Below are positions 2,272 to 23,702 of a stretch of 35,259 nucleotides of DNA, in pieces. The position numbers were made by a program, and so were the translations under genes. How positions within the stretch are numbered: the stretch's first letter is position 1; each line of letters opens with the position of its first letter. The notes beneath the pieces are model-generated. The model was given only the letters and a program-made list of their open reading frames with translations, was not told the DNA's origin and did no database searches. Origin of the DNA: Methylotenera sp. (GTDB taxonomy: Bacteria; Pseudomonadota; Gammaproteobacteria; Burkholderiales; Methylophilaceae); NCBI RefSeq assembly GCF_029945705.1, contig NZ_JAQSDC010000017.1, positions 1-35,259 of the forward strand, read 5' to 3'.

Positions 2272-3000
2272 TTAACACCAATCAGGATTTGGAATTTCAG
2301 CAAAGACTTTGCGTAAACCCTCGCCCCAATGTTGGCGTACCGAGAGAAAGTAAGGGTCGTCTTTAGCTACGCGGTGATTGTAATCAATGCTAAGTTTATT
2401 ATTTCTATACACCAACACGTCAACTGGTAGATCAACAGACACATTGCTGCGGATAGTCGAATCAAATGAGATGAGTACACATTTAAGCGCGTCTTCTAGG
2501 CCACATTTGTAGTTAATCACACGGTCTAAAATCGGCTTGCCGTACTTGGTTTCACCAATTTGAAAGTAAGGCGTTTCTTGGCTGGCTTCAATGAAGTTGC
2601 CCGCAGAGTAAATCTGGAACAGCCGCGTTGGTTCACCCGCAATTTGCCCAGCAAACAGAACGGAGATATTGAAGTCGGTATTGTGGTGACGCAAATGTTC
2701 AGCATCTTCTTTGTGTACAGTACGTATAGCCATACCAACCAAGCGTGCAGCATCGAACATATCTGAGGCATTGAGTAAGTGATGTGTTTCGTTGTTGGCG
2801 ATGTCTTTATGCAAGTGCTGTAATACCGCTTGAGTTACCGCTAAATTACCTGCAGTGAGCATCACCATCGTGCGCTCACCTGGCACTTCAAAAGTAGTCA
2901 TTTTAGGAAAAGTAGCGACTTGGTCAACACCCGCATTAGTACGGGTATCAGACGCCATGACTAATCCAGATTCCAATAGTATTCCAACACAATAAGTCAT
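2272..3000 (-). CDS. Anbu proteasome-like NTN hydrolase
   Basis: A 242-residue protein of the Anbu family, the bacterial ancestral beta-subunit relative of 20S proteasome and HslV. Removal of Met1 would expose the nucleophile Thr (N-terminus TYCVGILLESGLVMASDTR). In mature numbering Asp17 (in ASDTR) and Lys32 (in ATFPK) fit the proteasomal catalytic set, and there is no propeptide, as usual for Anbu. It is transcribed away from the fused ATP-grasp/alpha-E gene at 3202 and shares its 201-bp upstream region. Anbu genes are typically found beside alpha-E, cp-ATP-grasp and transglutaminase genes, as here. The substrate is unknown; a role in degrading or trimming peptide-tagged products has been proposed for the family. 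No good ribosome binding site is visible before the ATG. Confidence 0.92.
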   Translation of the reverse strand: MTYCVGILLESGLVMASDTRTNAGVDQVATFPKMTTFEVPGERTMVMLTAGNLAVTQAVLQHLHKDIANNETHHLLNASDMFDAARLVGMAIRTVHKEDAEHLRHHNTDFNISVLFAGQIAGEPTRLFQIYSAGNFIEASQETPYFQIGETKYGKPILDRVINYKCGLEDALKCVLISFDSTIRSNVSVDLPVDVLVYRNNKLSIDYNHRVAKDDPYFLSVRQHWGEGLRKVFAEIPNPDWC

Positions 3001-3057: not shown

Positions 3058-3201
3058 CTTGTTTGCGCTGTAAATCGCGCTAAATCAGGCTCCATTTAGG
3101 TGATGTTATGTAATTCTTTGTTAAAACGCATCTCTAGTGATGCAACTTAACCGCTAAGCTGAATTTAAGCTTAAAATGTGCTTAGGTTTTTGAGAGTACA
3201 C

Positions 3202-5793
3202 ATGGCAACTTCAAATCAATATTTGCAAGCTTCAAAAGCTAATACTTGGCTAGGGAATACGGCTGGCTATTCGGCGGGCGCAAGCATGCTAGATGAAATG
3301 CTCGATCAATCTGGCAAGGTTCGTCCGCATTGGGCATATTATATTCAAGCTTTACAAAAATTAGGGCAGGGTGAAGTTAGTTTAAGGCAGAATGAAATTC
3401 ACAAGTTACTCCGCGAAAACGGCGTCACTTACAATGTGTATGGCGACCCTGACGGCAGCAGTCGGCCTTGGCAGCTAGATTCTGTTCCCTTGCTGCTTGC
3501 TAATGAAGAGTGGCGAGATATTGAACTTGGTCTGCTAGAGCGTGCAGAACTGCTAAATCTGATTCTGACGGATATTTACGGGCCACGCGAGCTGATTCGG
3601 CAAGGCTTGTTACCAATAGAGATGTTGTTTAACCACAGTGGCTTTTTACGCGCTTGTGACAAAGTTAAAATACCTGGTAAACATCAATTAGTGCTGTACG
3701 CGGCAGATTTAGCACGCGGCCCTGATAATCGCATGTGGGTCATTGGCGACCGTACCCAAGCGCCTTCAGGTGCTGGATATGCCTTAGAAAACAGGCTGGC
3801 GATGTCGCGCGTGTTTCCCAATATTTTTCGTGACACACAAGTACAACGATTAGATGGCTTTTTTCAATCGTTGCGCCATGGCATGCAAGAAATCGCACCG
3901 CAAAATGCTGATGCGCCTAGAGTGGTTGTGCTGACGCCAGGGCCGTTTAATGAAACCTTTTTTGAGCATGCTTATTTAGCTTCACATCTAGGCTATCCAT
4001 TGGTTCAGGGCGATGACCTGACCGTGCGCGATGGCTTTGTTTGGTTGAAATCACTCAACGGCTTGCAGCGCGTGGATGTCATTATGCGTCGTATGGACGA
4101 TGTGTTTTGTGATCCACTTGAGTTACGTGATGATTCGCGCTTAGGTATTCCGGGTTTGCTAGAAGTGGCGCGCAGAGGCAATGTGACGATTGCTAATCCT
4201 TTAGGTAGTGGTGTATTAGAAAGCCCAGGTTTATTGCCATTTCTGCCAAGAATTGCGGAATACTTTTTGGGTAAGAAGCTACGTTTACCCAGTGCTGCTA
4301 CATGGTGGTGCGGTCAGCCCAAGGAGTTAGATTATGTGCTGAACAATCTGCATAAATTAGTGATTAAGCATATCTGTCGCGGTGCCATGACTTCGGTTTT
4401 TGGCAGCCAGTTGAGTCGGCAACAAATCACTTATTGGCGCGATCGCATTCGTGCCAACCCAGCATTTTTTGTGGGGCAAGAACATGAAGTGTTTTCTACC
4501 GCGCCCTCATTGGTGGATGGCCATTTAGAACCGCGTCAGTCATTGATGCGCTGCTTTATGGTCGCCCAAGAAAGCGGTTATAACCTGATGCCTGGCAGCC
4601 TTACACGCAGCGCGACGCAAACTGGTGATGTGCTAGTTTCAAGTCAGTTGGGCGCCATGAGTAAAGACACTTGGATAGTTGGCGGCACTAGCACGCAACA
4701 AACTAACGTAACAGCAAACAGACATAGCGAACTTGTTGGTAGCAGTTACTCCAGCACACTTTCTAGTCGCGTTGCCGAAAACCTGTTTTGGGTAGGTCGT
4801 TATGCTGAGCGCACAGAAGGTAGCATTCGCCTGCTTCGCACTACGGTTAAAAAACTTTATATCAACCCAGATAATAGTAATGTGCATTTTCAACATAGTT
4901 TGCATACTATTTTGCGCAGCCTCACCAACATTACCAATACTTACCCTGGCTTTTTAGGCGATTCAGAGAGTGATAATGCAACTGCACTATTGCAAACGCC
5001 AGATGGCGAACTGCTGTCATTGATGTTAGATGAAGAAAAAATTGGCAGTATTGCCAATAATCAGCGTAGCTTGGTGCAAGCGGGTTATACCGTACGTAAT
5101 TTGTGGTCATCAGATACGTGGCGGGTGATGGACGAGATAAAGTCGCACTTAGAACAATCGCAGCAACTCACTGAATCTACGCTGTGGAATATTCAAGAAC
5201 ACATGGATCGACTAATCACCGCGCTATCCGCGTTCAGTGGCTTGATTATGGAAAGCATGACGCGTGGCAATGGCTGGCTGTTTCTAGATATAGGCCGTCG
5301 TTTAGAGCGCGCTTTGTTGCTTATTTCACTATTACGAAGTTGCTTCTCTACCGCGCAAGCTTCAGGCACAGAACAACTATTGATGGAGTCTTTGCTGGAA
5401 ACCAGCGATAACCTGATTTGCTACCGTGAGCATTATCGCAACAGCATAGAGCTACCTTCATTTATTGAATTGCTGATGTTAGATAAAAATAATCCACGTT
5501 CTTTAGCCTATCAATTTAACCGCATTCAAGAACACGTGAGCAAAATGCCGCGTAAGCAAAGCAATGCACAGCTAAGTGTAGAAGAGCGCCTGATATTAGA
5601 AGCTTGTAGCTTATTAGATTTAACCAATTTAAACGACTTGATTAAAACCACAAAAGGGCACGTGCGTGAGAATTTAGATCAAACACTCAGCCGCTTGTAT
5701 TATTTAATCGCTACATTATCCGACAGCATAACTGCGACCTACTTCAAACACGGGCAGTTGCAACACTCACTCAATGAAGTCAGACCAGTTTAG
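3202..5793 (+). CDS. Fused circularly permuted ATP-grasp / alpha-E protein
   Basis: An 863-residue two-domain protein. Residues about 30-490 are a type-2 circularly permuted ATP-grasp domain (DUF404/DUF407) with the family patterns TPGPFNETFFEHAYLA, VDVIMRRMDDVFCDPLE and LANPLGSG-like ANPLGSGVLESPG. Residues about 520-850 are an alpha-E (DUF403) helical domain beginning SSRVAENLFWVGRYAERTEG. The start is set at ATG 3202 (GAGAG upstream) rather than the in-frame GTG at 3178, which would add eight atypical residues. Compared with the stand-alone paralogue at 17424-18863, Lys389 is kept. However, the Gly-rich loop GSGGYGM is replaced by HICRGAM (390-396), and the acidic EDN before RTPSG is GDR (182-184). 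ATP binding may therefore be altered. It probably forms an operon with the transglutaminase gene 11 bp downstream. Confidence 0.9.
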   Translation: MATSNQYLQASKANTWLGNTAGYSAGASMLDEMLDQSGKVRPHWAYYIQALQKLGQGEVSLRQNEIHKLLRENGVTYNVYGDPDGSSRPWQLDSVPLLLANEEWRDIELGLLERAELLNLILTDIYGPRELIRQGLLPIEMLFNHSGFLRACDKVKIPGKHQLVLYAADLARGPDNRMWVIGDRTQAPSGAGYALENRLAMSRVFPNIFRDTQVQRLDGFFQSLRHGMQEIAPQNADAPRVVVLTPGPFNETFFEHAYLASHLGYPLVQGDDLTVRDGFVWLKSLNGLQRVDVIMRRMDDVFCDPLELRDDSRLGIPGLLEVARRGNVTIANPLGSGVLESPGLLPFLPRIAEYFLGKKLRLPSAATWWCGQPKELDYVLNNLHKLVIKHICRGAMTSVFGSQLSRQQITYWRDRIRANPAFFVGQEHEVFSTAPSLVDGHLEPRQSLMRCFMVAQESGYNLMPGSLTRSATQTGDVLVSSQLGAMSKDTWIVGGTSTQQTNVTANRHSELVGSSYSSTLSSRVAENLFWVGRYAERTEGSIRLLRTTVKKLYINPDNSNVHFQHSLHTILRSLTNITNTYPGFLGDSESDNATALLQTPDGELLSLMLDEEKIGSIANNQRSLVQAGYTVRNLWSSDTWRVMDEIKSHLEQSQQLTESTLWNIQEHMDRLITALSAFSGLIMESMTRGNGWLFLDIGRRLERALLLISLLRSCFSTAQASGTEQLLMESLLETSDNLICYREHYRNSIELPSFIELLMLDKNNPRSLAYQFNRIQEHVSKMPRKQSNAQLSVEERLILEACSLLDLTNLNDLIKTTKGHVRENLDQTLSRLYYLIATLSDSITATYFKHGQLQHSLNEVRPV

Positions 5794-5804
5794 CGAAATT
5801 CAGC

Positions 5805-6701
5805 ATGCACTATAAAATCACTCATATCACCAAGTACGATTACACAGATAAAGTTTCACTGTCATACAGCGAAGCGCGCCTGATGCCAAGAAACTGCAAG
5901 AATCAACAAGTGATTTCATCCACACTAGATATAGAACCCTATGCGGCTGATTTCCGTATTCGCGAAGACTTCTTTGGTAATCATGTAGCGTATTTTTCTA
6001 TGCAGCAAGCGCACCATGCTTTCACCATTACAGCTGTAAGCGAAGTACAACTGCAAGAAAACCCAGCTCAGCTAGATTTCTATCAAGGCTATACTTGGGA
6101 AGCGGTACGTGATTTATTGGCTCAGCAAACGCACTCTACAAAACAAACAGCAGATACGCTCGATGCCCGCCAATATACTTTAGACTCGCCTTTGGTTGCC
6201 GTCACCACGGAGCTGGCAGAATATGCGACCTTATCTTTCACGCCAAGTAGATCAATCACCGGTGCAGTGAATGATTTAATGCAACGTATTTATAAAGACT
6301 TTACTTTTGACCCAGACTTTACCACCCTCGCCACGCCACTTGCCACCGTGCTAGAACACAGAAGAGGCGTTTGTCAGGATTTTGCGCACCTTGCAATCGG
6401 CTGTTTACGTTCAGTAGGTTTAGCGGCACGATACGTCAGTGGTTACATAGAAACCCTACCACCCGCAGGTGAAGCCAAGCTGATTGGTGCCGATGCCTCG
6501 CATGCTTGGTTCTCAGTCTATGTGCCAGAACAAGGCTGGATAGATTTTGACCCCACCAACAACCAAATGCCCAATACTCAACACATCACATTAGGCTGGG
6601 GACGGGACTACGCAGATATTACCCCACTAAAAGGCGTGATATTTGGCGGTCAGCAGCATGAGTTAGATGTGTCGGTGCATGTAGAGTGTTTGATGGAATG
6701 A
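5805..6701 (+). CDS. Transglutaminase-like protein of the Anbu/alpha-E locus
   Basis: A 298-residue protein with an N-terminal bacterial transglutaminase-associated beta domain (about 2-85) and a transglutaminase-like cysteine protease core. The triad is intact: Cys190 in GVCQDFAHL, His233 in SHAWFSVY, Asp249 in DFDPTNN. There is no signal peptide, so it is expected in the cytoplasm. It begins 11 bp after the ATP-grasp/alpha-E stop codon and is very likely co-transcribed with it. In this neighbourhood such enzymes are thought to act as peptidases or amide-transfer enzymes on the ligase product; the real substrate is unknown. It resembles the protein at 15582-16418, in which the Cys is lost. 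Confidence 0.88.
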   Translation: MHYKITHITKYDYTDKVSLSYSEARLMPRNCKNQQVISSTLDIEPYAADFRIREDFFGNHVAYFSMQQAHHAFTITAVSEVQLQENPAQLDFYQGYTWEAVRDLLAQQTHSTKQTADTLDARQYTLDSPLVAVTTELAEYATLSFTPSRSITGAVNDLMQRIYKDFTFDPDFTTLATPLATVLEHRRGVCQDFAHLAIGCLRSVGLAARYVSGYIETLPPAGEAKLIGADASHAWFSVYVPEQGWIDFDPTNNQMPNTQHITLGWGRDYADITPLKGVIFGGQQHELDVSVHVECLME

Positions 6702-7887: not shown

Positions 7888-10683
7888 TTAACCCGTATTA
7901 CGCAACCCCGCCGCAATGCCGTTAATCGTTAAATGAATCGCACGTTTCACTAGCACGTCAGTTTCACCGCTTCTATGGCGTTTAATCAGCGCTACTTGTA
8001 GGTGGTTGAGTGGGTCTAGGTAGGGGAGTCGGTTTTTAATTGAGTTGGCTAATGTGGGGTTGTTGGTAAGGCGCTCGGTGTTTTGTAAAATTAAATTGAG
8101 TGCTTGGTTAGTGAGTGCATGCTCTTGTTGTATGCGTTCAAATACCGTGGTTCTGAGTGTTTCATCTTGCACTAGTTCAGAATAGCAGCCTGCGATGACG
8201 AGGTCTGTTTTCGCAAGTATCATGTCCATATTGGAGATGAGCGTTTTGAATAGTGGCCAAGCATCTAGCATGTCTCTTAACACATGGATGCGTTGCTGTT
8301 TGTCCGTTTCATCTTTGCTAGCGCTTAAATATTCATTGATAGCGCTGCCAAAGCCGTACCAACCTGAAAGCAATAATCGACATTGCCCCCATGAGAAGCC
8401 CCATGGAATGGCGCGTAAGTCTTCAATACGTTGGGTGGCTTTGCGCGAGGCAGGGCGGCTGCCTAGATTTAAGTCGGCAATTTCTGAAATGGGCGTTGAG
8501 CTGAAAAAGTACTCTGCAAATCTTGGCGTTTCATAGACTAAATCTCGGTAAGCTTGCATTGCGCTGGCTGAGAGTTTATCCATCAACATTTCATAACCTC
8601 TGCGTTGTGTTTGTGGCAACTGATCTTGCGGAAATAGCGAGGCATCGATGGTCGCGGCGACAAAGGCTTCTAAATTGCGCCTTGCCACTTTAGGGTCAGA
8701 GAATTTATTGGCGATAATTTCACCTTGTTCCGTCAAGCGTATTTGGCCTGCTACCGTGCCTAGCGGTTGTGCCATGATGGCCTGATAGGTTGGGCCACCG
8801 CCACGGCCAACTGCGCCGCCACGGCCATGGAATAAACGCAATCTTACGTCTGCCTGACTGAATAGCTCAACTAAATAAACTTCGGCTTTGTATAGCTCCC
8901 AATTTGAGGTTAAAAAGCCGCCGTCTTTGTTGCTATCAGAATAACCAAGCATGATTTCTTGCTCATTGCCTTGATGGCGAATCAAATGGCGTATGCCTAG
9001 CAAGCTTAACCATTCGCTCATGATTTTTGGCGCGTTGCGCAAATCTTCAATGGTTTCAAACAGCGGCACGATATTGAGTTCCATCTCTACGCTGGATGAA
9101 CCCCATGCACCTCGCAACAAGCCAGCTTCTTTTTGTAGCAAAGCCACTTCAAGCAGGTCAGACATGGTTTCAGTATGCGAGATAATGTAGTGGCGCACCG
9201 TGCGGCTGCCAAATTTTGCACGGACTTCTCGCGCTTTTCTAATCACATTCATTTCTGTTTGTAGCAAGTCTGAATATTGTTGAAAAGGCGAGTACAACAA
9301 ACGTGGCTGCCTGAGTTCTTCTAGTAGGATATTTATTTTTTCTGCCTCACTGAGCGCGGCATAGTCAAAACTATAGCCAGCATTCACAAACAGTTCTTTT
9401 AACACTGCTTCATGCACGTCTGAGCTTTGTCTTAAATCGATGGTGGCTAAATGAAAACCAAAGGTTTCAACTGCTTTAATCAGCTTGCCCAGCCTTGGGT
9501 AAACCAGTAATTCACCGTGATTTTTAATCAATGAATTGGCAATAATGTTCAGGTCAGCTAGCAACTCATCTGCACTAGTGTACGGTTTTAAGTTCTCGGC
9601 TACGTTAGTTTCAATATGCAGGCTGGCTTCGCTACCGATTAAATTTTGAAAGCTGAGTGACAAGCGCCCCATGACGGCCATGATGGCAAGCCGATACGGT
9701 TCATCTTGTCGGTGCGGAGATTGATCTTGCGAGGTGCTAGCTAAATCTAGCAACTCTTGTGAAACTTTCACTAAGCGCGTAGTGGGTGTGAGCTCTTTGC
9801 GCAAGCTGCTGATTTCGCGTAAATAATGCTCAAATGCCACAGTGGATTGTTGTATGGTTGCGGTGTCTAAAGTGGCTGCGTTCACATTGGGGTTACCATC
9901 GCGGTCGCCACCAATCCAACTGCCCATCTGCAAAAAGCTTGGTAGCTGATAGCGTTCTGTGCCGGTTTTGTTAAACAAGTCGCCAATATCTTGCTCTAAA
10001 TCTTGCAATAGCTCAGGTATCGCATCGAGTAAGCTCAAGCGGTAGTATGAAAGCGCATTATCAATTTCATTGTCGACCGTGAGTTTGTCAAAACGCAACA
10101 TTCTGGTTTGCCATAAAGCTGTGACGGCGGCGTAGAGCATACGAGAGTTTTTCTCGGTTTCTTGGCGCGACATCAACTGCGCTTTATTGGCGAGTAGTGA
10201 TGAAATGACTTGTTCAGTATCTAGCAGGCTTTTTCTTTGCACCTCAGTTGGGTGTGCGGTTAACACTGGCGAAATTAACGCCGATTTAAAAAAATCATCA
10301 ATTTGTTTTAATGTTAACTTTTCATCTTTAAAAGAGCGCATAGAGTTTGCCACGCCGCCTGGTGCTTCTATACTTTCTTCCATTCGATATTGATAGTTGC
10401 TGTAAAGGTCTTCAGCAATATTGACCAAATGTTTAAAGTAGCTAAACGCTCTTGCCACTGAAATGGTTTGGCTGTTAGTCAGTTCTTTTAGTAAGCCATC
10501 TAATTTCTGTGTAAATTCTTGGTCGCCTTCGCGATGAAATTTCACGGCGGATTGACGAATTGCCTCTATGGTTTCGAAAGTTTTTTCACCCTCGTTATCT
10601 TTAATCACTTCGCCCAGAATGCGTCCAAGGTAACGGATATTTTCTTTAAGTGCTGTTTCAGCAGGTGTCATAGGTGCATTCAT
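7888..10683 (-). CDS. ppc: Phosphoenolpyruvate carboxylase
   Basis: A 931-residue PEP carboxylase, which adds bicarbonate to PEP to give oxaloacetate, an anaplerotic step important in C1 metabolism. Motifs are intact: catalytic His144 in VLTAHPTEVQRKS, the GYSDSNKDGG loop, FHGRGGAVGRGGGP, and the C-terminal Asn-Thr-Gly end important for activity. Length and full conservation indicate a functional bacterial-type enzyme. A ribosome binding site AAGGAA precedes the ATG. It is not functionally tied to the peptide-ligase genes on either side and probably has its own promoter in 10684-10780. Confidence 0.98.
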   Translation of the reverse strand: MNAPMTPAETALKENIRYLGRILGEVIKDNEGEKTFETIEAIRQSAVKFHREGDQEFTQKLDGLLKELTNSQTISVARAFSYFKHLVNIAEDLYSNYQYRMEESIEAPGGVANSMRSFKDEKLTLKQIDDFFKSALISPVLTAHPTEVQRKSLLDTEQVISSLLANKAQLMSRQETEKNSRMLYAAVTALWQTRMLRFDKLTVDNEIDNALSYYRLSLLDAIPELLQDLEQDIGDLFNKTGTERYQLPSFLQMGSWIGGDRDGNPNVNAATLDTATIQQSTVAFEHYLREISSLRKELTPTTRLVKVSQELLDLASTSQDQSPHRQDEPYRLAIMAVMGRLSLSFQNLIGSEASLHIETNVAENLKPYTSADELLADLNIIANSLIKNHGELLVYPRLGKLIKAVETFGFHLATIDLRQSSDVHEAVLKELFVNAGYSFDYAALSEAEKINILLEELRQPRLLYSPFQQYSDLLQTEMNVIRKAREVRAKFGSRTVRHYIISHTETMSDLLEVALLQKEAGLLRGAWGSSSVEMELNIVPLFETIEDLRNAPKIMSEWLSLLGIRHLIRHQGNEQEIMLGYSDSNKDGGFLTSNWELYKAEVYLVELFSQADVRLRLFHGRGGAVGRGGGPTYQAIMAQPLGTVAGQIRLTEQGEIIANKFSDPKVARRNLEAFVAATIDASLFPQDQLPQTQRRGYEMLMDKLSASAMQAYRDLVYETPRFAEYFFSSTPISEIADLNLGSRPASRKATQRIEDLRAIPWGFSWGQCRLLLSGWYGFGSAINEYLSASKDETDKQQRIHVLRDMLDAWPLFKTLISNMDMILAKTDLVIAGCYSELVQDETLRTTVFERIQQEHALTNQALNLILQNTERLTNNPTLANSIKNRLPYLDPLNHLQVALIKRHRSGETDVLVKRAIHLTINGIAAGLRNTG

Positions 10684-10781
10684 TTTTCAATTCCTTAAAC
10701 CAAACATCTTTGAATGGCTACATTATTTATAAAATTACCAACACTCTTCAACCACAGCATTAAACATAAACCTACTACTCT

Positions 10782-10859
10782 CGTCATTCCCGCGAAGGTG
10801 GGAATCCATGTTAGGTTTTAAAAAAGTCAAAATTGATTCCCGCCTTCGCGGGAATGACG
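10782..10859. repeat. Paired REP/dRS3-like inverted repeat
   Basis: Two 25-base arms, 10782-10806 and 10835-10859, are complementary at 24 of 25 positions. Each arm is itself a small palindrome of the form ATTCCCGCGAAGGnGGGAAT, close to the Neisseria dRS3 repeat and to similar repeats in other Proteobacteria. It lies between the 1124-residue ligase gene stop (10880) and the PEP carboxylase start (10683), both on the minus strand. As RNA it would form a long hairpin that could end or protect transcripts. It may be a repeated element elsewhere in the genome. Confidence 0.8.
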
Positions 10860-10879
10860 GAGTGAAGATTTAATTCCAG

Positions 10880-13800
10880 TTAATTCGCATGCCACCTTAA
10901 ATCTAGCGTGAATGGATACTCGCGATTGTTTAACTCGGTTGGCGGCTCCATCAGCTTCACAGCTTTATTGGCAGACTTCTTCGGCGATTTAATATTACCG
11001 GGCGTGTGCTCAAGTACGGTAAAGCGACTCACGCGGCGGCCTTCCGCTTCATAAGCATTGACTGGCAAGGTGTCATAGTTACGGCCACCAGGGTGCGTAA
11101 CATGGTAAGTGCAACCGCCAACAGAGCGACCATTCCATGTGTCAATCACATCAAATACTAATGGAGCTTGTACGCCTATACTTGGGTGCAGCGCAGAAGG
11201 CGGATTCCACGCACGGTAACGTACCCCTGCGACCATTTCACCTTGCGTGCCAGTGTCACGCAGCGGCAAGCGGCGGCCGTTGCAGGTAATCACATAGCGT
11301 TCCCCAGTGATGCCTGTGAGCTTGACTTGCAGGCGTTCAACCGAAGAATCGACATATCTAGCCGTACCGCCGCTAGTGATTTCCTCACCTAATACATGCC
11401 AAGGCTCAATCGCGGTTCTGAGTTCTAGCTGTAAGTCTTGAATTTCTAATGTGCCACAACGTGGAAAGCGGAATTCAATAAACGGTGCAAACCAATCTTT
11501 AGAAAACGCATAGCCAGCGGCTTGTAAATCTTGCGCGACATCTTCAATATCGCGTTCAATAAAGTGCGGTAGCATAAAGCGGTCATGTAACTGTGTGCCC
11601 CAACGTACCAGTGGTTTTTTGTAGGGCTCTTTCCAAAATCTGGCCACTAAAGCACGCAACAACAATATTTGCACCAAGCTCATGTGCGCATGTGGCGGCA
11701 TTTCAAACGCACGGAGTTCTAATAAGCCAAGTCGACCAGTATCTGAACCTGGCGCATAGAGCTTATCAATACAGAATTCACTGCGATGCGTATTGCCCGT
11801 CATATCCACAAGCAAATTGCGTAATAAGCGATCTACCAACCACGGGGCGGGTACTTCGCCATCTGGCATTTGTTGAAAGGCGATTTCTAGCTCATACAAG
11901 CTATCGTTACGCGCTTCATCAACGCGCGGCGCTTGGCTAGTGGGGCCAATAAACAGACCTGAAAACAGGTATGACAATGACGGGTGGTGCTGCCAATAAG
12001 TTATTAAACTGCGTAGCAAGTCAGGGCGACGCAAGATTGGGCTATCCGCTGGCGTAATGCCACCCAGCGTGACGTGATTACCGCCGCCCGTGCCCGTATG
12101 GCGGCCATCCAGCATGAATTTTTCAGAGCCTAGTCTGGTTAAACGTGCTTGTTCATACAATATCGTGGTGTTGTTAACCAAAGCATCCCAACTGGCGGCA
12201 GGATGAATGTTAACCTCAATCACACCAGGGTCTGGCGTGACAGGTAAGCGAGTTAAACGTAAGTCATGTGGCGGTTGATAGCCTTCAATCACCACAGGCA
12301 TGTTTAAGGTGCTGGCTGTTGCTTCAATGGAGGCAATGATGTCTAAATAATGCTCTAGCGTATTGGTTGGCGGTAAAAAGACATGCAAACGTCCGCCTCT
12401 GGTTTCCACGCACAAGGCCGTATGCGGGGTAAATTCTGGGTCTGCTGGTGCAGCATCTTCATCAGCTTCAACATCAACACCGTCATCCGCCAATCCCATT
12501 TCGTGACTATGCGCGTTCTCTTTGGTAAATTTGCTGTAACGGCGGCTCACTTCAGAATCAATATCCGCTAGTGGTTCTACCGCTTCATAAAGGCTACGCT
12601 CATGTTCATGGTCGCGGTCTTCAAAAGCTATCCAAGGCAATGAGCTTAATGGCAGGCGCAATCCCATAGCGGAATCGCCCGGCGCTAGAAACATTTCTCC
12701 ACGTCTAAATTCCCAAGCGCTGCTGCTCCATGCGTTGCGCTGGTGACTCCAATGCAGTGGAAGTAGATAGCCCACTGGCGCGCCTAAATCGCCCGCCAGC
12801 ACTTTTGTCAGACGCTTACGTTCTAAATCATCTTTGAGATCTGATTTGAGTGGGTTTAGATTATTGGGTACTAAGCCTTCAGCTAATAGGTAGTAAAGCG
12901 GGTCTTCATAACCTGCACAAATATGGCTGCCTTTTAGACCAAGTCGTTTTGCAAGGTCGCGAATGAAGGTATCAGCATGTTCGCGATTTAAACCATAGTC
13001 TTTGTTTTCATCAGCTAATAGCTCGGGGTTGCGCCAAACGGGTTTGCCATCTTTGCGCCAAAAACAAGCGAGTTGCCAGCGAGGTAGCGCTTCGCCCGGG
13101 TACCATTTTCCTTGACCAAAATACAGCAAACCGCCTGGTGCAAAGCTATCACGTAAACGTCTGACTAACTGACCAGCTAATTGACGTTTTTCTATACCAT
13201 CGGCATCAATATTCCATTCTGGCGCATCCATATTATCGATAGAGATAAAAGTCGGTTCGCCACCCATGGTGAGGCGCACATCGCCTGTTTCTAACTCAAC
13301 ATCTATCTTTTGACCTAGCGCATTAATCTCTACCCACTGCTGTTCGCTGTATGGTTTAGTGACGCGCGGATCTTCGTGAATGCGGGTAACATTGTTGCTA
13401 AAGCTAAATTCGATATTGGCGTGACCAGTATAGCCACCAGTCACAGGAGCCGCGCTGACATAATCAGCCGTGCAAGCGAGTGGAATATGACCTTCACCAG
13501 CCAATAAGCCAGATGTCGCATCTAAGCCTATCCAACCTGCGCCTGGAATATACACTTCAGCCCATGCATGCAAGTCGGTAAAGTCAACTTCGGTACCAGA
13601 AGGGCCATCCAAAGATTTCACATCCGCAGTGAGCTGTACCAAATAGCCAGAAACGAATCGAGCGGCTAAGCCCATGTGGCGCATGGCTTGCACTAGCAAC
13701 CAAGCAGAATCACGACAAGAACCTAATCTTTTGTCTAAGGTCTCTTCGCAAGTTTGTACGCCTACTTCCATGCGAATTGAGTAATTAACGGTTTGATTAA

Positions 13801-14254
13801 CACGCTGATTTAAGTACACCAGAAAATCTACAATCGCTTTTTTACCGACATCAATTTCCGCTAGCCAAGCTTTGAACAACGACCCTTGTTCGCGCACTTC
13901 TAAGTAGGGCGCAAGTTCTTTGAGTAACTGTTCTGGATAAGCAAACGGATAATTCTCTGCGTATTCTTCCAAGAAGAAATCGAAAGGATTAATCACCGTC
14001 ATTTCTGCAATCAGATCGACTTCGATTGAAAGTTCGGTAGATTTTTCTGGAAACACCACGCGTGCTAGGTAATTGCCAAACGGATCTTGCTGCCAACTGA
14101 TGAAGTGATTCTCAGGTAATATTTTAAGTGAGTAAGCACTCACAGGCGTGCGCGAGTGCGCTGCTGGCCGAAGACGGAAAACATGCGGTGCAAGTTGCAC
14201 GGGATTATCATAGTGATAGGCCGTTTTATGGTGGAGCGCGACTCGAATAGTCAT
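10880..14254 (-). CDS. Transglutaminase fused to DUF2126 cp-glutamine-synthetase-like ligase
   Basis: A 1124-residue fusion. Residues 1 to about 290 are a transglutaminase-like unit with an intact triad: Cys180 in LGSCRDSAW, His229 in DLHAWAEVY, Asp245 in GLDATSG. Residues about 330-1110 are DUF2126, described in comparative work as a circularly permuted glutamine-synthetase-like amide ligase; recognisable stretches are GGEPTFISIDN, HTGTGGGNHVTLGG and LFIGPTSQAPRVDEARN. An acidic, poorly conserved linker lies near residue 570-590. A ribosome binding site AAGGTG precedes the ATG. It is the last gene of the minus-strand operon starting near 18863, 38 bp after the dioxygenase-like gene. It likely joins an amine or amino acid to a carboxyl group on a peptide; the substrate is unknown. 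Confidence 0.9.
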   Translation of the reverse strand: MTIRVALHHKTAYHYDNPVQLAPHVFRLRPAAHSRTPVSAYSLKILPENHFISWQQDPFGNYLARVVFPEKSTELSIEVDLIAEMTVINPFDFFLEEYAENYPFAYPEQLLKELAPYLEVREQGSLFKAWLAEIDVGKKAIVDFLVYLNQRVNQTVNYSIRMEVGVQTCEETLDKRLGSCRDSAWLLVQAMRHMGLAARFVSGYLVQLTADVKSLDGPSGTEVDFTDLHAWAEVYIPGAGWIGLDATSGLLAGEGHIPLACTADYVSAAPVTGGYTGHANIEFSFSNNVTRIHEDPRVTKPYSEQQWVEINALGQKIDVELETGDVRLTMGGEPTFISIDNMDAPEWNIDADGIEKRQLAGQLVRRLRDSFAPGGLLYFGQGKWYPGEALPRWQLACFWRKDGKPVWRNPELLADENKDYGLNREHADTFIRDLAKRLGLKGSHICAGYEDPLYYLLAEGLVPNNLNPLKSDLKDDLERKRLTKVLAGDLGAPVGYLLPLHWSHQRNAWSSSAWEFRRGEMFLAPGDSAMGLRLPLSSLPWIAFEDRDHEHERSLYEAVEPLADIDSEVSRRYSKFTKENAHSHEMGLADDGVDVEADEDAAPADPEFTPHTALCVETRGGRLHVFLPPTNTLEHYLDIIASIEATASTLNMPVVIEGYQPPHDLRLTRLPVTPDPGVIEVNIHPAASWDALVNNTTILYEQARLTRLGSEKFMLDGRHTGTGGGNHVTLGGITPADSPILRRPDLLRSLITYWQHHPSLSYLFSGLFIGPTSQAPRVDEARNDSLYELEIAFQQMPDGEVPAPWLVDRLLRNLLVDMTGNTHRSEFCIDKLYAPGSDTGRLGLLELRAFEMPPHAHMSLVQILLLRALVARFWKEPYKKPLVRWGTQLHDRFMLPHFIERDIEDVAQDLQAAGYAFSKDWFAPFIEFRFPRCGTLEIQDLQLELRTAIEPWHVLGEEITSGGTARYVDSSVERLQVKLTGITGERYVITCNGRRLPLRDTGTQGEMVAGVRYRAWNPPSALHPSIGVQAPLVFDVIDTWNGRSVGGCTYHVTHPGGRNYDTLPVNAYEAEGRRVSRFTVLEHTPGNIKSPKKSANKAVKLMEPPTELNNREYPFTLDLRWHAN

Positions 14255-14292
14255 TAATGTGTCACCTTCTGTTGAGTCGTCATTATTTTGAT

Positions 14293-15525
14293 TTAGCTAG
14301 CACTTTCAGCTTGTAGTAAGCGTAAATTTTCTTCCACACCAGCCGCTTCAGTGAGTTCAGCCACGTTCTGCTTGGTAAAAAACCCATCAAAATCGCCAAA
14401 GCGTTGTACATATTCAATGATGAGCGATGAATGTTCTGAGGCGCTGGAGAAAATTTGTTTTAGGCCTTCTTCGCGTGAGCCAATCACATCGAGTAAGAAG
14501 TCTTTGCCTTTTTCTCTGATGGCAGCGACCACGTAATCAATATTGATTTGACCATTGGTTTCGCCGTCTGCCACGCCTAGTGCAATGTGGTGCAAACGCG
14601 GACCATAATTGCGTACAAAGTTTTCAGTAGGTGACGGTAAGCCGACTAAGTGATTAACGAAGTAAGGATGATTAGCCGCCGTGAAAACCTTTGCAGGGCT
14701 TTTTTGCTCATTATTATAGTGCGCGCTTTTAGTCACATTGGTTGAAGAGTTTTGGCTGGCAATATCGTATGAGCCCCAGTAGTAATAGCTGGAAAGCGTG
14801 AGATACTCAAGTATTGCCACCTCACGGTTTTGGCTGTAAATACGCGTTGCCAGATGGTCAATTGGCAGAATCAGTTTATCTAAACCGAGCTTAGCTTGTG
14901 TTTCTTTGGCTTCCAGATAACCGCGATTCACGTCTTCATGAATCACACTTACCCCAAGCGCATAAATGCGAATATCCCCGACTGGTCGCTCCCAATATCC
15001 TACAATATTGTGCGTGTAGGGCGAAGGTTTAACGATAGACATATTGCCTGGTAGTTCTAACTTGCGAATTTGATCTTGATTGAAAAAACGAATCTCGCGG
15101 GCTTTTTGTAGCTCAACCACTTCATGCTGATTAGTCACACGAAAGATTTCGCCCATATAGCGCGAGTTTGGCTTATGCGCGCCTATCGGGTAAACGTCAT
15201 TAAGACTGCGGAAAATGCCGTGGATATTAGGGTCGCGCACTTCTCGCACAATCACATCTGGCGAATTCATATCAATACGCAGCACATGCGTCCAATGCGA
15301 CTCGGATTCTAGCGTGACTAAATAGTGGTAGGGCGTCATCAACGCTAACTCACTGATATAAGCCACTGAACAACCTGGCTCAACGGTAATCATCATGGCG
15401 TCAATTTCATGCACCATGTCAGTTAAGCCAATTCGATCTCTATCTTCCAATAGCTTAGGTAGAAATTCTTCAAACCAAGGTGAGTTGACCTTGTCGCCAT
15501 GACGCTGGTGTTGCAATGAGTTCAT
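14293..15525 (-). CDS. HPPD-like VOC-superfamily protein in the ligase operon
   Basis: A 410-residue protein. Its C-terminal half (about 215-385) resembles the metal-binding half of 4-hydroxyphenylpyruvate dioxygenase. His223 in LPIDHLATRI, His313 in LHHIALGV and Glu371 in IIEYVQRFGDFDGFF match the three iron ligands and their local sequence (DHLT, QHVAF, FFEFIQR), and KQIFSS matches LLQIFSE. The N-terminal 210 residues are not recognised. Overall similarity seems too low to call it true HPPD, and the rest of tyrosine degradation is absent. It lies inside a tight operon (56 bp after one transglutaminase gene, 38 bp before the next). An iron-dependent oxygenase acting on the ligase product is a reasonable guess. 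The fold assignment is by eye. Confidence 0.6.
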   Translation of the reverse strand: MNSLQHQRHGDKVNSPWFEEFLPKLLEDRDRIGLTDMVHEIDAMMITVEPGCSVAYISELALMTPYHYLVTLESESHWTHVLRIDMNSPDVIVREVRDPNIHGIFRSLNDVYPIGAHKPNSRYMGEIFRVTNQHEVVELQKAREIRFFNQDQIRKLELPGNMSIVKPSPYTHNIVGYWERPVGDIRIYALGVSVIHEDVNRGYLEAKETQAKLGLDKLILPIDHLATRIYSQNREVAILEYLTLSSYYYWGSYDIASQNSSTNVTKSAHYNNEQKSPAKVFTAANHPYFVNHLVGLPSPTENFVRNYGPRLHHIALGVADGETNGQINIDYVVAAIREKGKDFLLDVIGSREEGLKQIFSSASEHSSLIIEYVQRFGDFDGFFTKQNVAELTEAAGVEENLRLLQAESAS

Positions 15526-15581
15526 TAGGACATCCGAAATGTAAGTATTGGTGTGTTCTTGTTTTAGCTAAAGTGAAATAC

Positions 15582-16418
15582 TTATTGTTGCGCAATGGCA
15601 TGCACTTTGGAATTGATCGACATTTTTTCATGTACAACATCTGGCATGACACGCGAGATAGGGCATGCATCACGGTAATCTAATCCGGTTGCTAGTCTCA
15701 CGTGTATGCCATTTGATCGCGCGTTATTGGCCACATCAAAACTTTGCCAACCGTCTTTGATTAGCCATGCGTCCGCCCAACTATGGTAATCAAGTTGCTT
15801 ACTTTCATGGTTATAGCAATAACCATGTACAAGCCTTGCTGGTATTTTAAAGGCTCGACAGCAGCTAATAAATAAATGCGCCATGCCCTGACTTAAGCCC
15901 TTACCTTGGGCTAAGGTGGTGATGGCGGACTGCTGGTATTCTGTAGTGTCTTTATCGCAAACAATCTTTTGTGAAACACCATGCATGAGTGCCGTTAGCA
16001 TCGTTAGCGTATGGGGTTCACCTTTCGTTAAAAACTGATCTGAAAACTGAATGACTTGATCATTAGCCTCTGTCAGCTTGGTATTTCTGAGGTAGATGGG
16101 TAGCGCTAAATTTTCATATTTTGTCGTTAGTGTTTCATTGGCGTCATTAGTCGTCGTGGTACTATCTAGATCAGTTTCAACTTCCCCCGTAACACTGATG
16201 ATAATTTCTTGATGCGGGACATCCATCACCAATGTATGCGTCGTGTTGCCAAAGGTATCAATCTGCGGAGATGACAACCCACTCACTTTAAGTTGCCAAT
16301 TACTAACGCGTTGCCCAAACCCACTTTCTGGCGTGAGTCGCAACTGCTGTATTGTGTATCCGACAGGCTTATTGAATGCAAAGCGGGTTTGGTGTTCAAT
16401 ATTAAATTTCATAGCCAA
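15582..16418 (-). CDS. Transglutaminase-like protein with Cys-to-Ser nucleophile
   Basis: A 278-residue transglutaminase-like protein. The N-terminal beta domain and core are recognisable (SQGMAHLFISCCRAFKIPAR, then HGYCYN). The nucleophile position, Cys in the usual GVCQD pattern, is Ser176 here (GLSQG), encoded by AGT, one base from TGT. His212 (YHSWADAW) and Asp228 (FDVANN) remain. It may be inactive and serve as a binding or scaffold subunit, or act as a serine enzyme. It lies 37 bp after the alpha-E gene and 56 bp before the dioxygenase-like gene. Its closest relative in the window is the intact protein at 5805-6701. Confidence 0.85.
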   Translation of the reverse strand: MAMKFNIEHQTRFAFNKPVGYTIQQLRLTPESGFGQRVSNWQLKVSGLSSPQIDTFGNTTHTLVMDVPHQEIIISVTGEVETDLDSTTTTNDANETLTTKYENLALPIYLRNTKLTEANDQVIQFSDQFLTKGEPHTLTMLTALMHGVSQKIVCDKDTTEYQQSAITTLAQGKGLSQGMAHLFISCCRAFKIPARLVHGYCYNHESKQLDYHSWADAWLIKDGWQSFDVANNARSNGIHVRLATGLDYRDACPISRVMPDVVHEKMSINSKVHAIAQQ

Positions 16419-16455
16419 TCTCCCATTTAGTTTAATGACTTTTAATGCTGATCTT

Positions 16456-17430
16456 TTATCCTTGAGTTTGAGTCATAGGTAATTCAAGTTCTGGGCTATT
16501 TAGGTACGCACGTTGAATTTCAAGCCCTAGGCGATTGTTTTGTCTGAGGAATGCTTCTAAAAATTCATGTAAGCCTTCTTTGTAGATATCTTCAATCAGG
16601 CCATATTTCAAAGTGGAGTGAATTTCACCAGCTAGGCGCTTACATTCACGTCCAGCATTACCGCTTAAATGTTCAAGAATAGTGGTTAGTTCATCCATAC
16701 AAGCATGAAGCGAACGCGGCATGTCTTTGCGTAATACTAGAAGTTCTGCCACCCGCAAGGGCACGACAGCATCGCGATACACTTTTAGATAGGCTAAATA
16801 GGCGCTGGCTGAACGTAATAATGCACTCCACTCGTAGTAATCTACAGCTCCGCCAACATCAGACGCTGACGGTAATAGAAGGTGATATTTCACATCTAAC
16901 AAACGCGCCATGTCATCTGCACGCTCAATAAACCCGCCTAATCTGGTGAACCAAAAGCCATCATCACGCAACATGGTGCCGTAAGTCACGCCACGGAACA
17001 GATGTGAACGAGATTTCACCCAGTCGCAAAACTCTGTTAAGCCACTATCGAGAATGACTAATTTGTCGAGCTGTAGAAATTCTAACCATAGGCTATTGAT
17101 GTTTTCCCACATCTCCAGCGACATGGCCACTCTTACTGCGTGTGCATTTTCACGTGCTGCGCGCAAACAGCTATAAATGCTCGAAGGATTGCGCTCATCC
17201 ATTGAAATGTAGTAAATAACGTTGCTGGCAGTGACTTCATCATAGGCTTTGTTGAAGTCATCGACGGTATCTGAAATATGCAGCAATGGCACCCAAAGCG
17301 CAGCTTCGCTTTGGGCAGCGTTTTGAACGAGTGACATGCGATAAGTCACATCCAGCATGCGCGCCATGTTTTCAGCACGCTCAATATAACGTGCCATCCA
17401 GTATAAGTGATCAGCGGTGCGACTTAGCAT
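16456..17430 (-). CDS. Alpha-E domain protein (DUF403)
   Basis: A stand-alone alpha-E protein of about 324 residues, all-helical, starting MLSRTADHLYWMARYIERAENMARML, which is the family's typical N-terminus. The start at 17430 overlaps the stop of the upstream cp-ATP-grasp gene in an ATGCTAA arrangement, indicating translational coupling; an alternative ATG at 17442 would add four residues. Alpha-E domains are found almost only with cp-ATP-grasp, transglutaminase and Anbu genes and probably act as a partner or scaffold for the ligase. Here it is a separate protein, whereas the paralogous locus at 3202-5793 has it fused to the ATP-grasp domain. Confidence 0.9.
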   Translation of the reverse strand: MLSRTADHLYWMARYIERAENMARMLDVTYRMSLVQNAAQSEAALWVPLLHISDTVDDFNKAYDEVTASNVIYYISMDERNPSSIYSCLRAARENAHAVRVAMSLEMWENINSLWLEFLQLDKLVILDSGLTEFCDWVKSRSHLFRGVTYGTMLRDDGFWFTRLGGFIERADDMARLLDVKYHLLLPSASDVGGAVDYYEWSALLRSASAYLAYLKVYRDAVVPLRVAELLVLRKDMPRSLHACMDELTTILEHLSGNAGRECKRLAGEIHSTLKYGLIEDIYKEGLHEFLEAFLRQNNRLGLEIQRAYLNSPELELPMTQTQG

Positions 17431-18863
17431 TGCAGCACCCATGTATCTTTAGTGCCGCCACCTTGAGAGGAGTTCACGACTAAAGATCCTTCATTCATGG
17501 CTACGCGACACAATGCCCCTGGTACGACTGAAGTCGTTTTACCTGATAATACATAAGGACGAAGGTCAACATGCCTAGGCGCTACGCCTTGTTCGACCAA
17601 TGTTGGACAGGTAGAAAGCGCAAGTGTTGGTTGGGCAATGTAGTTATCTGGGTCGGCTATGATGCGTAATCTAAACTCTTCAATCTGTGCTTTGCTTGAA
17701 GTTGGGCCTACGAGCATGCCGTAACCACCTGATCCTTGCACTTCTTTAACCACTAATTCAGCAAGATTATCCAACACATATTTTCTGTCATCTGCTTTGC
17801 TGAGTTTATAGGTGGGAACATTGGACAAAATTGGCTCCTCACCTAAATAAAATTTAATCATATCAGGCACGAAGGTATAAGTAGCTTTGTCATCCGCAAC
17901 ACCTGTGCCAATGGCGTTAGCCAGTGTTACACCACCATTACGATAGACTGAAACTAAGCCAGGTACACCTAACATAGAGTCTTGTCTGAATGCCAAGGGG
18001 TCAATAAAGTCATCGTCAATACGTCGATAAATGACATCAATCTTTTTAGGCCCTTCAGTGGTGCGCATAAATACGGCATTGTCTTTTACAAACATGTCTC
18101 GACCTTCAACCAGCTCAATACCCATCTGCTGTGCAAGAAAAGCATGTTCAAAATATGCGCTGTTGTATGCACCTGGTGTCATCAGTACAACGGTAGGGTC
18201 ACCTGTTGTGCCACTGGGCGCGGCGGCGCGCAGATTTTCTAACAATACTTGCGGATAATGATCGACTGGTGCAATAGGATATTGCCTGAAAAGCTCAGGG
18301 AATAACCGCATCATCATGCGGCGGTCTTCCAGCATGTACGAAACACCAGAAGGCGTTCGTAAGTTATCTTCTAACACATAAAAAGTATCCGCTTCGGTAC
18401 GTACAATATCAATACCTGCAATATGGGCATAAACACCGCCCGGCACGTCTACACCTTGCATCTCTGGTCGATACATTTCGTTAGTCAGTATACTTTCTGG
18501 CATGATGCCAGCTTTGATAATGTCCTGTCCGTGATAGATGTCATTCAAAAACATATTGAGTGCACGCACACGTTGGCAAGCGCCATCTGAGAGCTTTCCC
18601 CATTCACTTGCGGCCAAAATTCTAGGAATCACATCAAATGGAATCAGGCGTTCAGCGCCTTCCTCTTCGCCATAGACTGCGAAAGTGATACCGACTCGTC
18701 GAAACAGTAATTCTGCATCGCGAGATTTTTGTGCAAGTTGAGAAAAGTCTTTGCCAGCTAACCAGTCAGCATAAGGCGCGTAAACTTGTCTCACGCCTTT
18801 TTTTGAATCTATAGATTCATCAAATGCAGTGAGCAGTTTATTTTTATAATCAATAGAAGCCAT
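17424..18863 (-). CDS. Circularly permuted type-2 ATP-grasp protein
   Basis: A 479-residue (from 18863) cp-ATP-grasp protein (DUF404/DUF407), expected to form an acyl phosphate and join it to an amine. ATP-site features look intact: VLEDNLRTPSGVSYMLEDRR, IDVIYRRIDDDFIDPLAF, and the Lys plus Gly-rich loop in VVKEVQGSGGYGM. These are the positions changed in the fused paralogue at 3202-5793, so this is the likelier catalytic copy. The ATG at 18863 is preferred because the protein then begins where homologues do; an ATG at 18899 would add 12 residues, and neither has a good ribosome binding site. It is the first gene of a five-gene operon and overlaps the alpha-E gene. Confidence 0.9.
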   Translation of the reverse strand: MASIDYKNKLLTAFDESIDSKKGVRQVYAPYADWLAGKDFSQLAQKSRDAELLFRRVGITFAVYGEEEGAERLIPFDVIPRILAASEWGKLSDGACQRVRALNMFLNDIYHGQDIIKAGIMPESILTNEMYRPEMQGVDVPGGVYAHIAGIDIVRTEADTFYVLEDNLRTPSGVSYMLEDRRMMMRLFPELFRQYPIAPVDHYPQVLLENLRAAAPSGTTGDPTVVLMTPGAYNSAYFEHAFLAQQMGIELVEGRDMFVKDNAVFMRTTEGPKKIDVIYRRIDDDFIDPLAFRQDSMLGVPGLVSVYRNGGVTLANAIGTGVADDKATYTFVPDMIKFYLGEEPILSNVPTYKLSKADDRKYVLDNLAELVVKEVQGSGGYGMLVGPTSSKAQIEEFRLRIIADPDNYIAQPTLALSTCPTLVEQGVAPRHVDLRPYVLSGKTTSVVPGALCRVAMNEGSLVVNSSQGGGTKDTWVLQC

Positions 18864-19248
18864 AGTAATAGTATACTTGCAAGGCGCGTGCCAACTCATA
18901 CAAAATTAATCAATATCTATATTTAATGCGCCTTGCAGGCTTGTTTTATCTTGAATTGATATTACTAGTAGCACCAATTTTTTAGTCTACTTTAATTGAT
19001 GCGCTTTTTTGGTGCATAGCTAACTTAGCAAAGCGTTTAGTTAGTGCGTAAAGTTAATAGGAATTTTCTTGAAAGTAAGCCCCACAGCCTACTTCAGGCT
19101 TAAGCTAGTTTAAGCAAAACAACGAATAGTGAATGAATAGCTATTGGTATAGTTATTGCTGTATCTTCAGGACAGTGTTGCTGCAAATAGGTAGCTTTCG
19201 TCAAGATGCTTTTGTCCAAATACTGTAAATCATAAAAGGAAAACAACT
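18864..19248. promoter_or_regulatory. Divergent upstream region of the second ligase locus
   Basis: 385 bp between the divergent cp-ATP-grasp and transglutaminase genes, with no convincing small gene. A perfect 9-bp inverted repeat, GCAAGGCGC (18879-18887) and GCGCCTTGC (18928-18936), lies just upstream of the minus-strand start and could be an operator. GCACCAA and TTGGTGC about 35 bp apart (18971-19015) form a weaker pair. Promoters for both operons are expected here, but none stands out. Confidence 0.35.
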
Positions 19249-20046
19249 GTGTGGCTTCGTACTCGATGTGATATTACTTTTGACGTGGCTATTGCAACCC
19301 CGTTTATTCTGATGCTTAGGCCCCGTAGCGGCTTAAATCAATGGGTCGCGCGAGAGTCATATACGCTAAACCCTAGCGTGCCCGTTGTTGAGTACACTGA
19401 TAATTACGGCAATCTTTGCCAGCGGCTAATTGCACCGCCGGGCGAATTTTCTATCCGAACATCCGCCGACATTATGACCGCAGACAACATCGATGTTTGT
19501 GCAGGCGCACCTTTTGATGAAGTACAAAATTTGCCAGATGACGTGCTTACCTACCTGTTACCAACGCGCTATTGTGAGTCAGATCGCTTTATCGACCTAG
19601 GTCAAGAGCTCGTAGCTGGCGTGATGCCTGGCTATGATCAAGTCGCGACCATCGTGGCTTGGATACGTGACAATATTAAGTTTAATTCAGACTCCATTCA
19701 CTTTCAGCTATCTGCGGTAGAGGTTAATCAGCAGCGCGAGGGTGTGTGTCGCGAGTTGGCGCATTTGGGCATCGCGCTGTGTCGAGGTTTGTGCATTCCT
19801 GCGCGCATGGTTGTTGGCTACCTACATGGACTAAAGCCTATGGATTTTCATGCTTGGTTTGAAGCTTACGTAGGCGGGCGCTGGTATACCTTTGACCCAA
19901 CACAGCCCTATCCTATAGGCGGTCGTGTCACCGTTGCTTATGGGCGCGACGCTGCCGATGTGGCGATATTCAACCAATTTGGCCCAGCGTTATATCCGCA
20001 AGCCATGTCGGTGAGTGTTGAAATGTTAGATGCGGCACCAAACTAA
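19249..20046 (+). CDS. Transglutaminase-like protein, short form
   Basis: A 265-residue protein with a transglutaminase-like core and an intact triad: Cys167 in GVCRELAHL, His201 in DFHAWFEAY, Asp216 in TFDPTQP. The N-terminal domain is shorter and diverges from the other copies ([17 protein letters not shown]). The GTG start at 19249 is supported by AAAAGGA about eight bases upstream. No signal peptide is visible, so it is probably cytoplasmic. It is the first of two co-directional transglutaminase genes (21-bp gap), divergent from the cp-ATP-grasp operon, and probably belongs to the same pathway. Whether it acts as protease, amidase or cross-linker cannot be told. Confidence 0.87.
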
Positions 20047-20067
20047 GCGTTATTTAATTCCAAAGCT

Positions 20068-20922
20068 ATGCAAAGATTACGTATTAAACACCTGACTGAT
20101 TATACGTTTCCAGCGCAGGTAACGTTGAATCAGCATAAGCTTTTACTGCGCCCAAGAGAAGGGCATGACGTACGCATTGAGTCCTCAAAGTTAGAAATCA
20201 CGCCTGCTTACAATATTAAATGGCAGCGTGATGTGTTTGATAACTCGCTGGCGATTGTCAATTTTTTAGAGCGTTCGAATAGGCTCACTATCGCTAGTGA
20301 GGTCGTAATTCAGCATTACGAGCAAGCGCCTTTCGACTTTATGTTAGAAAGCTATGCGGCTCAATATCCATTTACTTACGCATTAGACGAACAAGCAGAT
20401 TTGGCTATTTTCCAGCAGGCCAGCTTTTATAACGACCAAAATGTTGTTAATGCATGGTTGCAACAACAAAACTTATTTGGCATGCAAACTTTTAGTTTGT
20501 TAATGCATTTAAATCAGAATATTAGCCAAAATTTTCGTTATCAAATGCGCGAAGAAGCGGGTGTGCAGTCGCCTTCGCAAACGCTGTCGCAGCGTAGTGG
20601 ATCTTGTCGAGATTATGCAACGCTGTTCATTGAAGCTTGTCGTTGCTTAGGCTTAGCGAGCCGCTTTGTCAGTGGTTATTTACATGCGCCAGCTACCGAA
20701 GCTGGAAATGCGACAACCCACGCATGGGCTGAAGTCTATTTGCCCGGCACTGGTTGGAAAGGATTTGACCCGACTTCAGGAGAACTCACAGGTAATCACC
20801 ATATTGCTGTAGCCGTTGCGCGCAATCCAGAGTCAGTACCACCAATTTCTGGCAGTTTTACTGGACTAGGCTTGATGGCAACTACGATGTTAGTCAATGT
20901 GCAGGTTAATTTGTTACCCTAG
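20068..20922 (+). CDS. Transglutaminase-like protein related to the ligase fusion N-terminus
   Basis: A 284-residue protein with intact Cys180 (SGSCRDYATLF), His218 (THAWAEVYLPG) and Asp234 (FDPTSGEL). It matches residues 1-290 of the 1124-residue ligase fusion closely: the Cys falls at the same residue number, APFDFMLESYAAQYPFTY lines up with NPFDFFLEEYAENYPFAY, and VQSPSQTLSQRSGSCRD lines up with VQTCEETLDKRLGSCRD. It therefore looks like a free-standing duplicate of that domain. It starts 21 bp after the previous transglutaminase gene and is likely in the same transcript. It converges with the rubredoxin gene. Confidence 0.88.
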   Translation: MQRLRIKHLTDYTFPAQVTLNQHKLLLRPREGHDVRIESSKLEITPAYNIKWQRDVFDNSLAIVNFLERSNRLTIASEVVIQHYEQAPFDFMLESYAAQYPFTYALDEQADLAIFQQASFYNDQNVVNAWLQQQNLFGMQTFSLLMHLNQNISQNFRYQMREEAGVQSPSQTLSQRSGSCRDYATLFIEACRCLGLASRFVSGYLHAPATEAGNATTHAWAEVYLPGTGWKGFDPTSGELTGNHHIAVAVARNPESVPPISGSFTGLGLMATTMLVNVQVNLLP

Positions 20923-21280: not shown

Positions 21281-23491
<2,211 letters not shown>

Positions 23492-23566
23492 TTAATAATT
23501 TGCTGCATAGTCAGCCAGTAGCGCTATGGCCAGTGGACTAATGTTTTCTAATAGTTGTTTAATCAT
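23492..23566 (-). CDS. 24-residue small ORF before katG
   Basis: Encodes a 24-residue hydrophobic peptide, MIKQLLENISPLAIALLADY plus AANY. The start at 23566 has an AGGAGAATACAATG ribosome binding site, as good as that of katG. It ends 21 bp before the katG start and would lie on the katG message. It could be a small membrane or amphipathic protein, or a leader whose translation affects katG. Spacing, ribosome binding site and clean stop support it; no homologue is recognised. Confidence 0.5.
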   Translation of the reverse strand: MIKQLLENISPLAIALLADYAANY

Positions 23567-23599
23567 TGTATTCTCCTAGTTGCCTTGCATATGGAGTAT

Positions 23600-23622: not shown

Positions 23623-23702
23623 CATAATTGTATGTTTTGATGAGGTTGATAAATATAATTTATCAATGTATGATAGAAAAAATTGATGGCATTGAGCATA
23701 AA

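Follow-up and report, generated by a model that had tools for sequence, protein, structure and literature searches.

The window analyzed here, a 35,259-nucleotide contig of Methylotenera sp. (NZ_JAQSDC010000017.1, contig 17 of the 2.93-Mb genome GCF_029945705.1), encodes a protein (P0001), designated HPPDL, that on balance we take for a new subfamily of the fold shared by 4-hydroxyphenylpyruvate dioxygenase (HPPD) and hydroxymandelate synthase, and for a mononuclear non-heme iron(II) oxygenase serving the alpha-E/circularly permuted ATP-grasp system. Three lines of evidence carry this reading: a predicted HPPD fold, an invariant His-His-Glu triad aligned with the HPPD iron ligands, and the presence of alpha-E in every HPPDL-carrying genome tested.

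The HPPDL open reading frame begins with ATG on the minus strand and encodes 410 residues. The protein had no match in Pfam or in NCBIfam (the latter searched up to E 10), no PDB chain was retrieved by phmmer or by a profile search, a plasmid search gave no match, and no viral structure matched the HPPDL model with E up to 0.001. Loci were fetched for the best 80 of about 297 relatives in one collection, a set biased toward close similarity to the window; 60 of these together with the window made up a 61-protein alignment from which close copies and some others had been dropped. Mean column identity was 80% in this alignment and 81% in a set of 19 proteins. HPPDL is conserved above its partners, as at locus L053, where HPPDL had 77% identity but the ATP-grasp protein 48% and alpha-E 30%. 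HPPDL is a deeply conserved HPPD-fold branch that lies outside the coverage of Pfam and NCBIfam.

The AlphaFold2 model of HPPDL (mean pLDDT of 76.2; 55.7–76.2 over five models) adopted the HPPD fold over nearly its whole length, and the succession of strands and helices in the model together with the HPPD alignment placed beta-alpha-beta-beta-beta VOC modules in the protein. Pocket segments 229–232, 282–285, 299–309, and 384–405 were modeled with pLDDT <50. The top structural matches of the better model were HPPD and hydroxymandelate synthase, including 4-hydroxymandelate synthase (2r5v and 7yvv) at 17% identity. A reading of the window made from its letters and translations (the sequence-only reading) had described an HPPD-like VOC protein with a complete iron triad, and the structure prediction and the triad alignment bear this out. 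The same reading found the N-terminal half unrecognized, which holds for sequence searches; in the model, however, this half aligns with HPPD and is not a novel domain structurally.

The putative iron ligands are His224, His313, and Glu371. The sequence-only reading had named the latter two correctly but placed the first at position 223, which is an aspartate. All three residues fell in the HPPD ligand columns in a profile-profile comparison with 16 HPPD-type sequences, and they were invariant in 19/19 and in 61/61 HPPDL proteins. The comparison scored 37.7, whereas among 200 column-shuffled HPPD profiles (mean 17.1, SD 3.2) the best reached 30.5, and reversing the profile gave 21.1. The triad was covered by the local alignment only; global hhalign gave a score of −0.4 and no useful alignment. 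The geometry of the triad is predicted from fold and alignment. The hhalign mapping also equated Asn282, Gln379, Phe381, Phe419, and Asn423 of HPPD with Asn285, Gln357, Phe359, Phe382, and Asn387 of HPPDL, each present in 61/61 proteins; the compared columns carry Arabidopsis HPPD numbering. HPPDL might instead keep the metal site for other VOC chemistry, such as isomerization, hydrolysis, or extradiol-type ring cleavage, or as a metal sensor or scaffold. We consider this unlikely, given that HPPD-type ligands occupy HPPD columns, that Asn285, Gln357, Phe359, and Asn387 are also retained, and that HPPD and hydroxymandelate synthase head the structural matches.

The distribution of HPPDL was examined in an evenly sampled class set of 274 genomes, 23 of which carried HPPDL and 79 alpha-E. 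Alpha-E was present in 23/23 HPPDL carriers compared with 56/251 non-carriers (Fisher p 3e-14, kinship uncorrected). A sample of 398 genomes across the phylum added six further carriers, all with alpha-E (6/6); four of the 11 genomes listed there had weak matches (E 0.14–0.8) and were not counted as carriers. In the window-biased set of 80 loci, a core gene lay within 6 kb of HPPDL in 63, so that the gene is clearly not absent from all related loci, an outcome the sequence-only reading had named as refuting. In the other 17 loci, the fetched stretch held no core gene (nine of these stretches extended 6 kb or more to either side of HPPDL), and each of the 17 genomes had alpha-E elsewhere (17/17); at least two of these genomes, recognized by identical coordinates, also belong to the six from the phylum sample. 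In the genomes tested, which cover a minority of the about 297 relatives, HPPDL occurs only with alpha-E. The other components were associated more loosely: DUF2126 was found in 19/23 HPPDL carriers compared with 31/56 alpha-E genomes lacking HPPDL, and Anbu in 22/23 compared with 44/56. On these counts, transglutaminase or DUF2126 as an obligatory partner was rejected. The sequence-only reading had stressed a seat between two transglutaminase genes; the placement within an alpha-E/ATP-grasp/transglutaminase run stands, but the upstream transglutaminase-like protein lacks its catalytic cysteine (see below), and the close partners of HPPDL are alpha-E and the ATP-grasp protein, not the transglutaminases or DUF2126.

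Several observations weigh against the reading that HPPDL serves this system. By comparison of two tables, an alpha-E match lay within about 5 kb of HPPDL in about 12/23 carriers, leaving 11/23 copies that are not near alpha-E in the class sample; 56/79 alpha-E genomes lack HPPDL; 3/23 copies (G156, G206, and G264) are seemingly broken or remnant; and RuBisCO (E <1e-100) was found in 19/23 carriers compared with 23/56 alpha-E genomes lacking HPPDL (Fisher p 0.001). The last of these, like the copies distant from alpha-E, would fit an indirect link, in which HPPDL and alpha-E share a lifestyle, that of aerobic or microaerobic chemolithoautotrophs and methylotrophs, rather than one pathway. Named carriers include Methylotenera, Methylomonas, Gallionella, Sideroxydans, Thiobacillus, Acidithiobacillus, and Mariprofundus, hosts that we take to be mostly chemolithoautotrophs and methylotrophs. 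We nevertheless judge an indirect link improbable: alpha-E in 23/23 carriers is a stricter association than RuBisCO in 19/23, and, besides the core genes nearby, alpha-E or a pseudo-transglutaminase stood directly upstream of HPPDL on the same strand in 49/80 loci, although these loci are biased to the window. Two further copies (G048 and G241) were cut by contig ends. Of the seemingly broken or remnant copies (loci L022, L027, L021, L025, and L023 in G206, G156, and G264), two lie next to alpha-E or what is left of it.

For the ATP-grasp partner, a tree was built from 80 rows after removal of L230 and L231 (34–36% identity); the stretch of G033 yielded no ATP-grasp match. HPPDL presence was scattered on this tree, with 17 changes, at least nine of them forced by starred branches, although the clustering slightly exceeded chance (counts as low arose in 6 or 11 of 500 shuffles). 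This scatter indicates that HPPDL has been gained and lost repeatedly, yet only in alpha-E genomes among those tested. A family search of selected neighbors at four loci without HPPDL detected no HPPD-like replacement. The neighbors of stand-alone HPPDL copies (malic enzyme, fructose-bisphosphate aldolase, and SulP, as identified by reading the sequence without a family search) vary and gave no clue to the substrate.

HPPDL shares with HPPD (TIGR01263) the two-domain VOC fold, as predicted, and the His-His-Glu columns, but it differs in other respects. It scores below the curated TIGR01263 cut-off and has no sequence-library match at all, and it is tied to alpha-E rather than to tyrosine degradation. 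In the hhalign mapping, Gln293, Gln307, and Phe424 of HPPD are replaced by Pro299, His312, and Val388, each in 61/61 proteins, and Ser267 has no reliable counterpart. In Arabidopsis HPPD, catalytic efficiency dropped ∼3722-fold for Q293A, 160-fold for N282A, 99-fold for Q307A, and 12-fold for S267A (PMC6750108). The window's own genome had no matches to PF14696, TIGR01263, or PF04209 (homogentisate dioxygenase), which agrees with the sequence-only reading that tyrosine-degradation genes are missing, other genes of that pathway not having been searched. Canonical HPPD was found in one of 29 carrier genomes, G206, whose HPPDL copy is fragmented with a stop, and a tally over the first 94 genomes placed HPPD above the cut-off in 5/19 alpha-E genomes lacking HPPDL. 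A canonical HPPD identity for HPPDL was rejected on the glutamine positions and the context. That HPPDL is a divergent HPPD acting on tyrosine-derived 4-hydroxyphenylpyruvate is very unlikely: it has the fold and triad and could in principle substitute in the 28/29 searched carriers without a canonical HPPD match, but the two glutamines whose substitution impairs the Arabidopsis enzyme are Pro and His throughout, PF04209 is absent from the window's genome, and the association is with alpha-E instead of tyrosine genes. Separately, a 331-residue HPPD-like protein (L131, in G041) scored 275 bits against the TIGR01263 cut-off of 277. Its Gln293 and Gln307 columns are likewise occupied by Pro and His, so that it may represent a further branch of the HPPD fold whose chemistry differs.

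For the iron(II) oxygenase that we favor, a mechanism can be drawn from the literature on HPPD and hydroxymandelate synthase. His224, His313, and Glu371 would hold Fe(II), and a 2-oxo acid would chelate the metal bidentately; this could be a small acid or else an intermediate of the ligase system itself that carries a 2-oxo group. O2 would cleave the 2-oxo acid with loss of CO2, and the resulting iron(IV)-oxo species would hydroxylate the same molecule. Two placements in the ligase context are the simplest. The product could be a building block used by the ATP-grasp ligase, made before ligation; this placement is modeled on hydroxymandelate synthase, which feeds hydroxyphenylglycine peptides, although the partner of that enzyme is a peptide synthetase whereas that of HPPDL is the ATP-grasp ligase system. 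Alternatively, HPPDL may act after ligation and bring the ligated product into its final state. The sequence-only reading had likewise suggested that the ligase product, or an aromatic or keto acid serving as building block, might be oxidized. E-64 synthesis, in which an iron oxygenase supplies an ATP-grasp ligase, offers a precedent (PMC12568646). HglS, a DUF1338 2-oxoadipate dioxygenase, is likewise a VOC-type iron enzyme acting on 2-oxo acids (PMC7286885), but HPPDL has no Pfam DUF1338 match. The NtrC regulon mapped in Burkholderia cenocepacia lists genes with DUF404/407 and DUF403 (−8.2 and −9.4; PMC5491218), names formerly used for the ligase and alpha-E domains of this system, a hint that may point to nitrogen supply.

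The features of the window are collected in Table 1. Gaps of 56 bp to the preceding gene and 38 bp to the following gene, from the open reading frame coordinates, flank HPPDL, and its nearest relatives with identical gene order (97–98% identity) are from Methylotenera and other Methylophilaceae. Scans of 10,600–19,400 were uninformative on the transcription unit, with 10 promoter-like sites compared with a shuffle mean of 16.2 (no excess) and 10 terminator-like sites compared with 8.8 (about equal).

Table 1. Features of the HPPDL locus and its surroundings in the window
Feature	Position	Strand	Basis
Circularly permuted ATP-grasp ligase (PF14403/PF04174), at the head of the run	17424..18899	-	family search
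Alpha-E protein (PF04168)	16456..17442	-	family search
Transglutaminase-like protein, Ser at nucleophile position	15582..16418	-	family search and motif reading
HPPDL (P0001), HPPD-fold protein with His-His-Glu putative iron triad, 410 aa	14293..15525	-	
His224 codon, first putative iron ligand	14854..14856	-	
His313 codon, second putative iron ligand	14587..14589	-	
Glu371 codon, third putative iron ligand	14413..14415	-	
Fusion of a transglutaminase-like domain with DUF2126 (putative amidoligase), next gene downstream of HPPDL	10880..14254	-	family search
Anbu-type proteasome homologue, possible further member	2272..3000	-	PF00227 E 8.6e-8
Second system: ATP-grasp/alpha-E fusion protein (3178-5793) with a transglutaminase (5805-6701)	3178..6701	+	family search
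Two more transglutaminase genes (19249-20046 and 20068-20922), divergent from run	19249..20922	+	family search

The transglutaminase-like protein preceding HPPDL has Ser in place of the catalytic Cys, and in the fetched loci 6/6 orthologues directly upstream of HPPDL lack this residue, with Ser (4), Tyr (1), or Asn (1) at the position. The Cys motif was read from sibling proteins. The protein is probably a pseudo-transglutaminase that is not catalytic as a Cys transglutaminase. Five transglutaminase-like proteins are encoded in the window when both systems and the divergent pair are counted. The name Anbu for the proteasome homologue, which accompanies the second, fused system, follows from its position beside ATP-grasp, alpha-E, and transglutaminase genes. 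Beyond the run, 197 bp away and likewise on the minus strand, comes a phosphoenolpyruvate carboxylase gene (7888–10,683), an order repeated in L028, L029, L032, and L051. Genes for a catalase-peroxidase-like protein and, in divergent orientation, a LysR/OxyR-like regulator (21,281–24,605, as read from the sequence without a family search) adjoin the locus.

The alpha-E/ATP-grasp/transglutaminase/Anbu set, whose genes the window and its relatives carry, has been described as a predicted system for the synthesis or modification of peptides (PMC6376114, PMC5666114, and PMC3597751). The literature found assigned it no product, and no oxygenase was reported for the alpha-E system in the literature searched, which included neither the paper that first described the system (Iyer 2009) nor the bulk of subscription papers. 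The surrounding system is thus already known, and what we regard as new is the HPPD-fold subfamily and its place as a newly seen accessory member. HPPDL extends the HPPD fold by a branch that the Pfam and NCBIfam libraries miss. The presence of alpha-E in every tested carrier suggests that the ligase gene set can include an oxidation step. More tentatively, the alpha-E/ATP-grasp/Anbu system might have an oxygen-dependent branch in chemolithoautotrophs and methylotrophs, in which an HPPD-fold iron oxygenase would make or finish an oxidized, probably 2-oxo-acid-derived, unit of a peptide-like metabolite or protein tag. The gene set is widespread, and an alpha-E-dependent oxygenase would narrow its chemistry, in that a 2-oxo acid or an oxidized unit should be involved.
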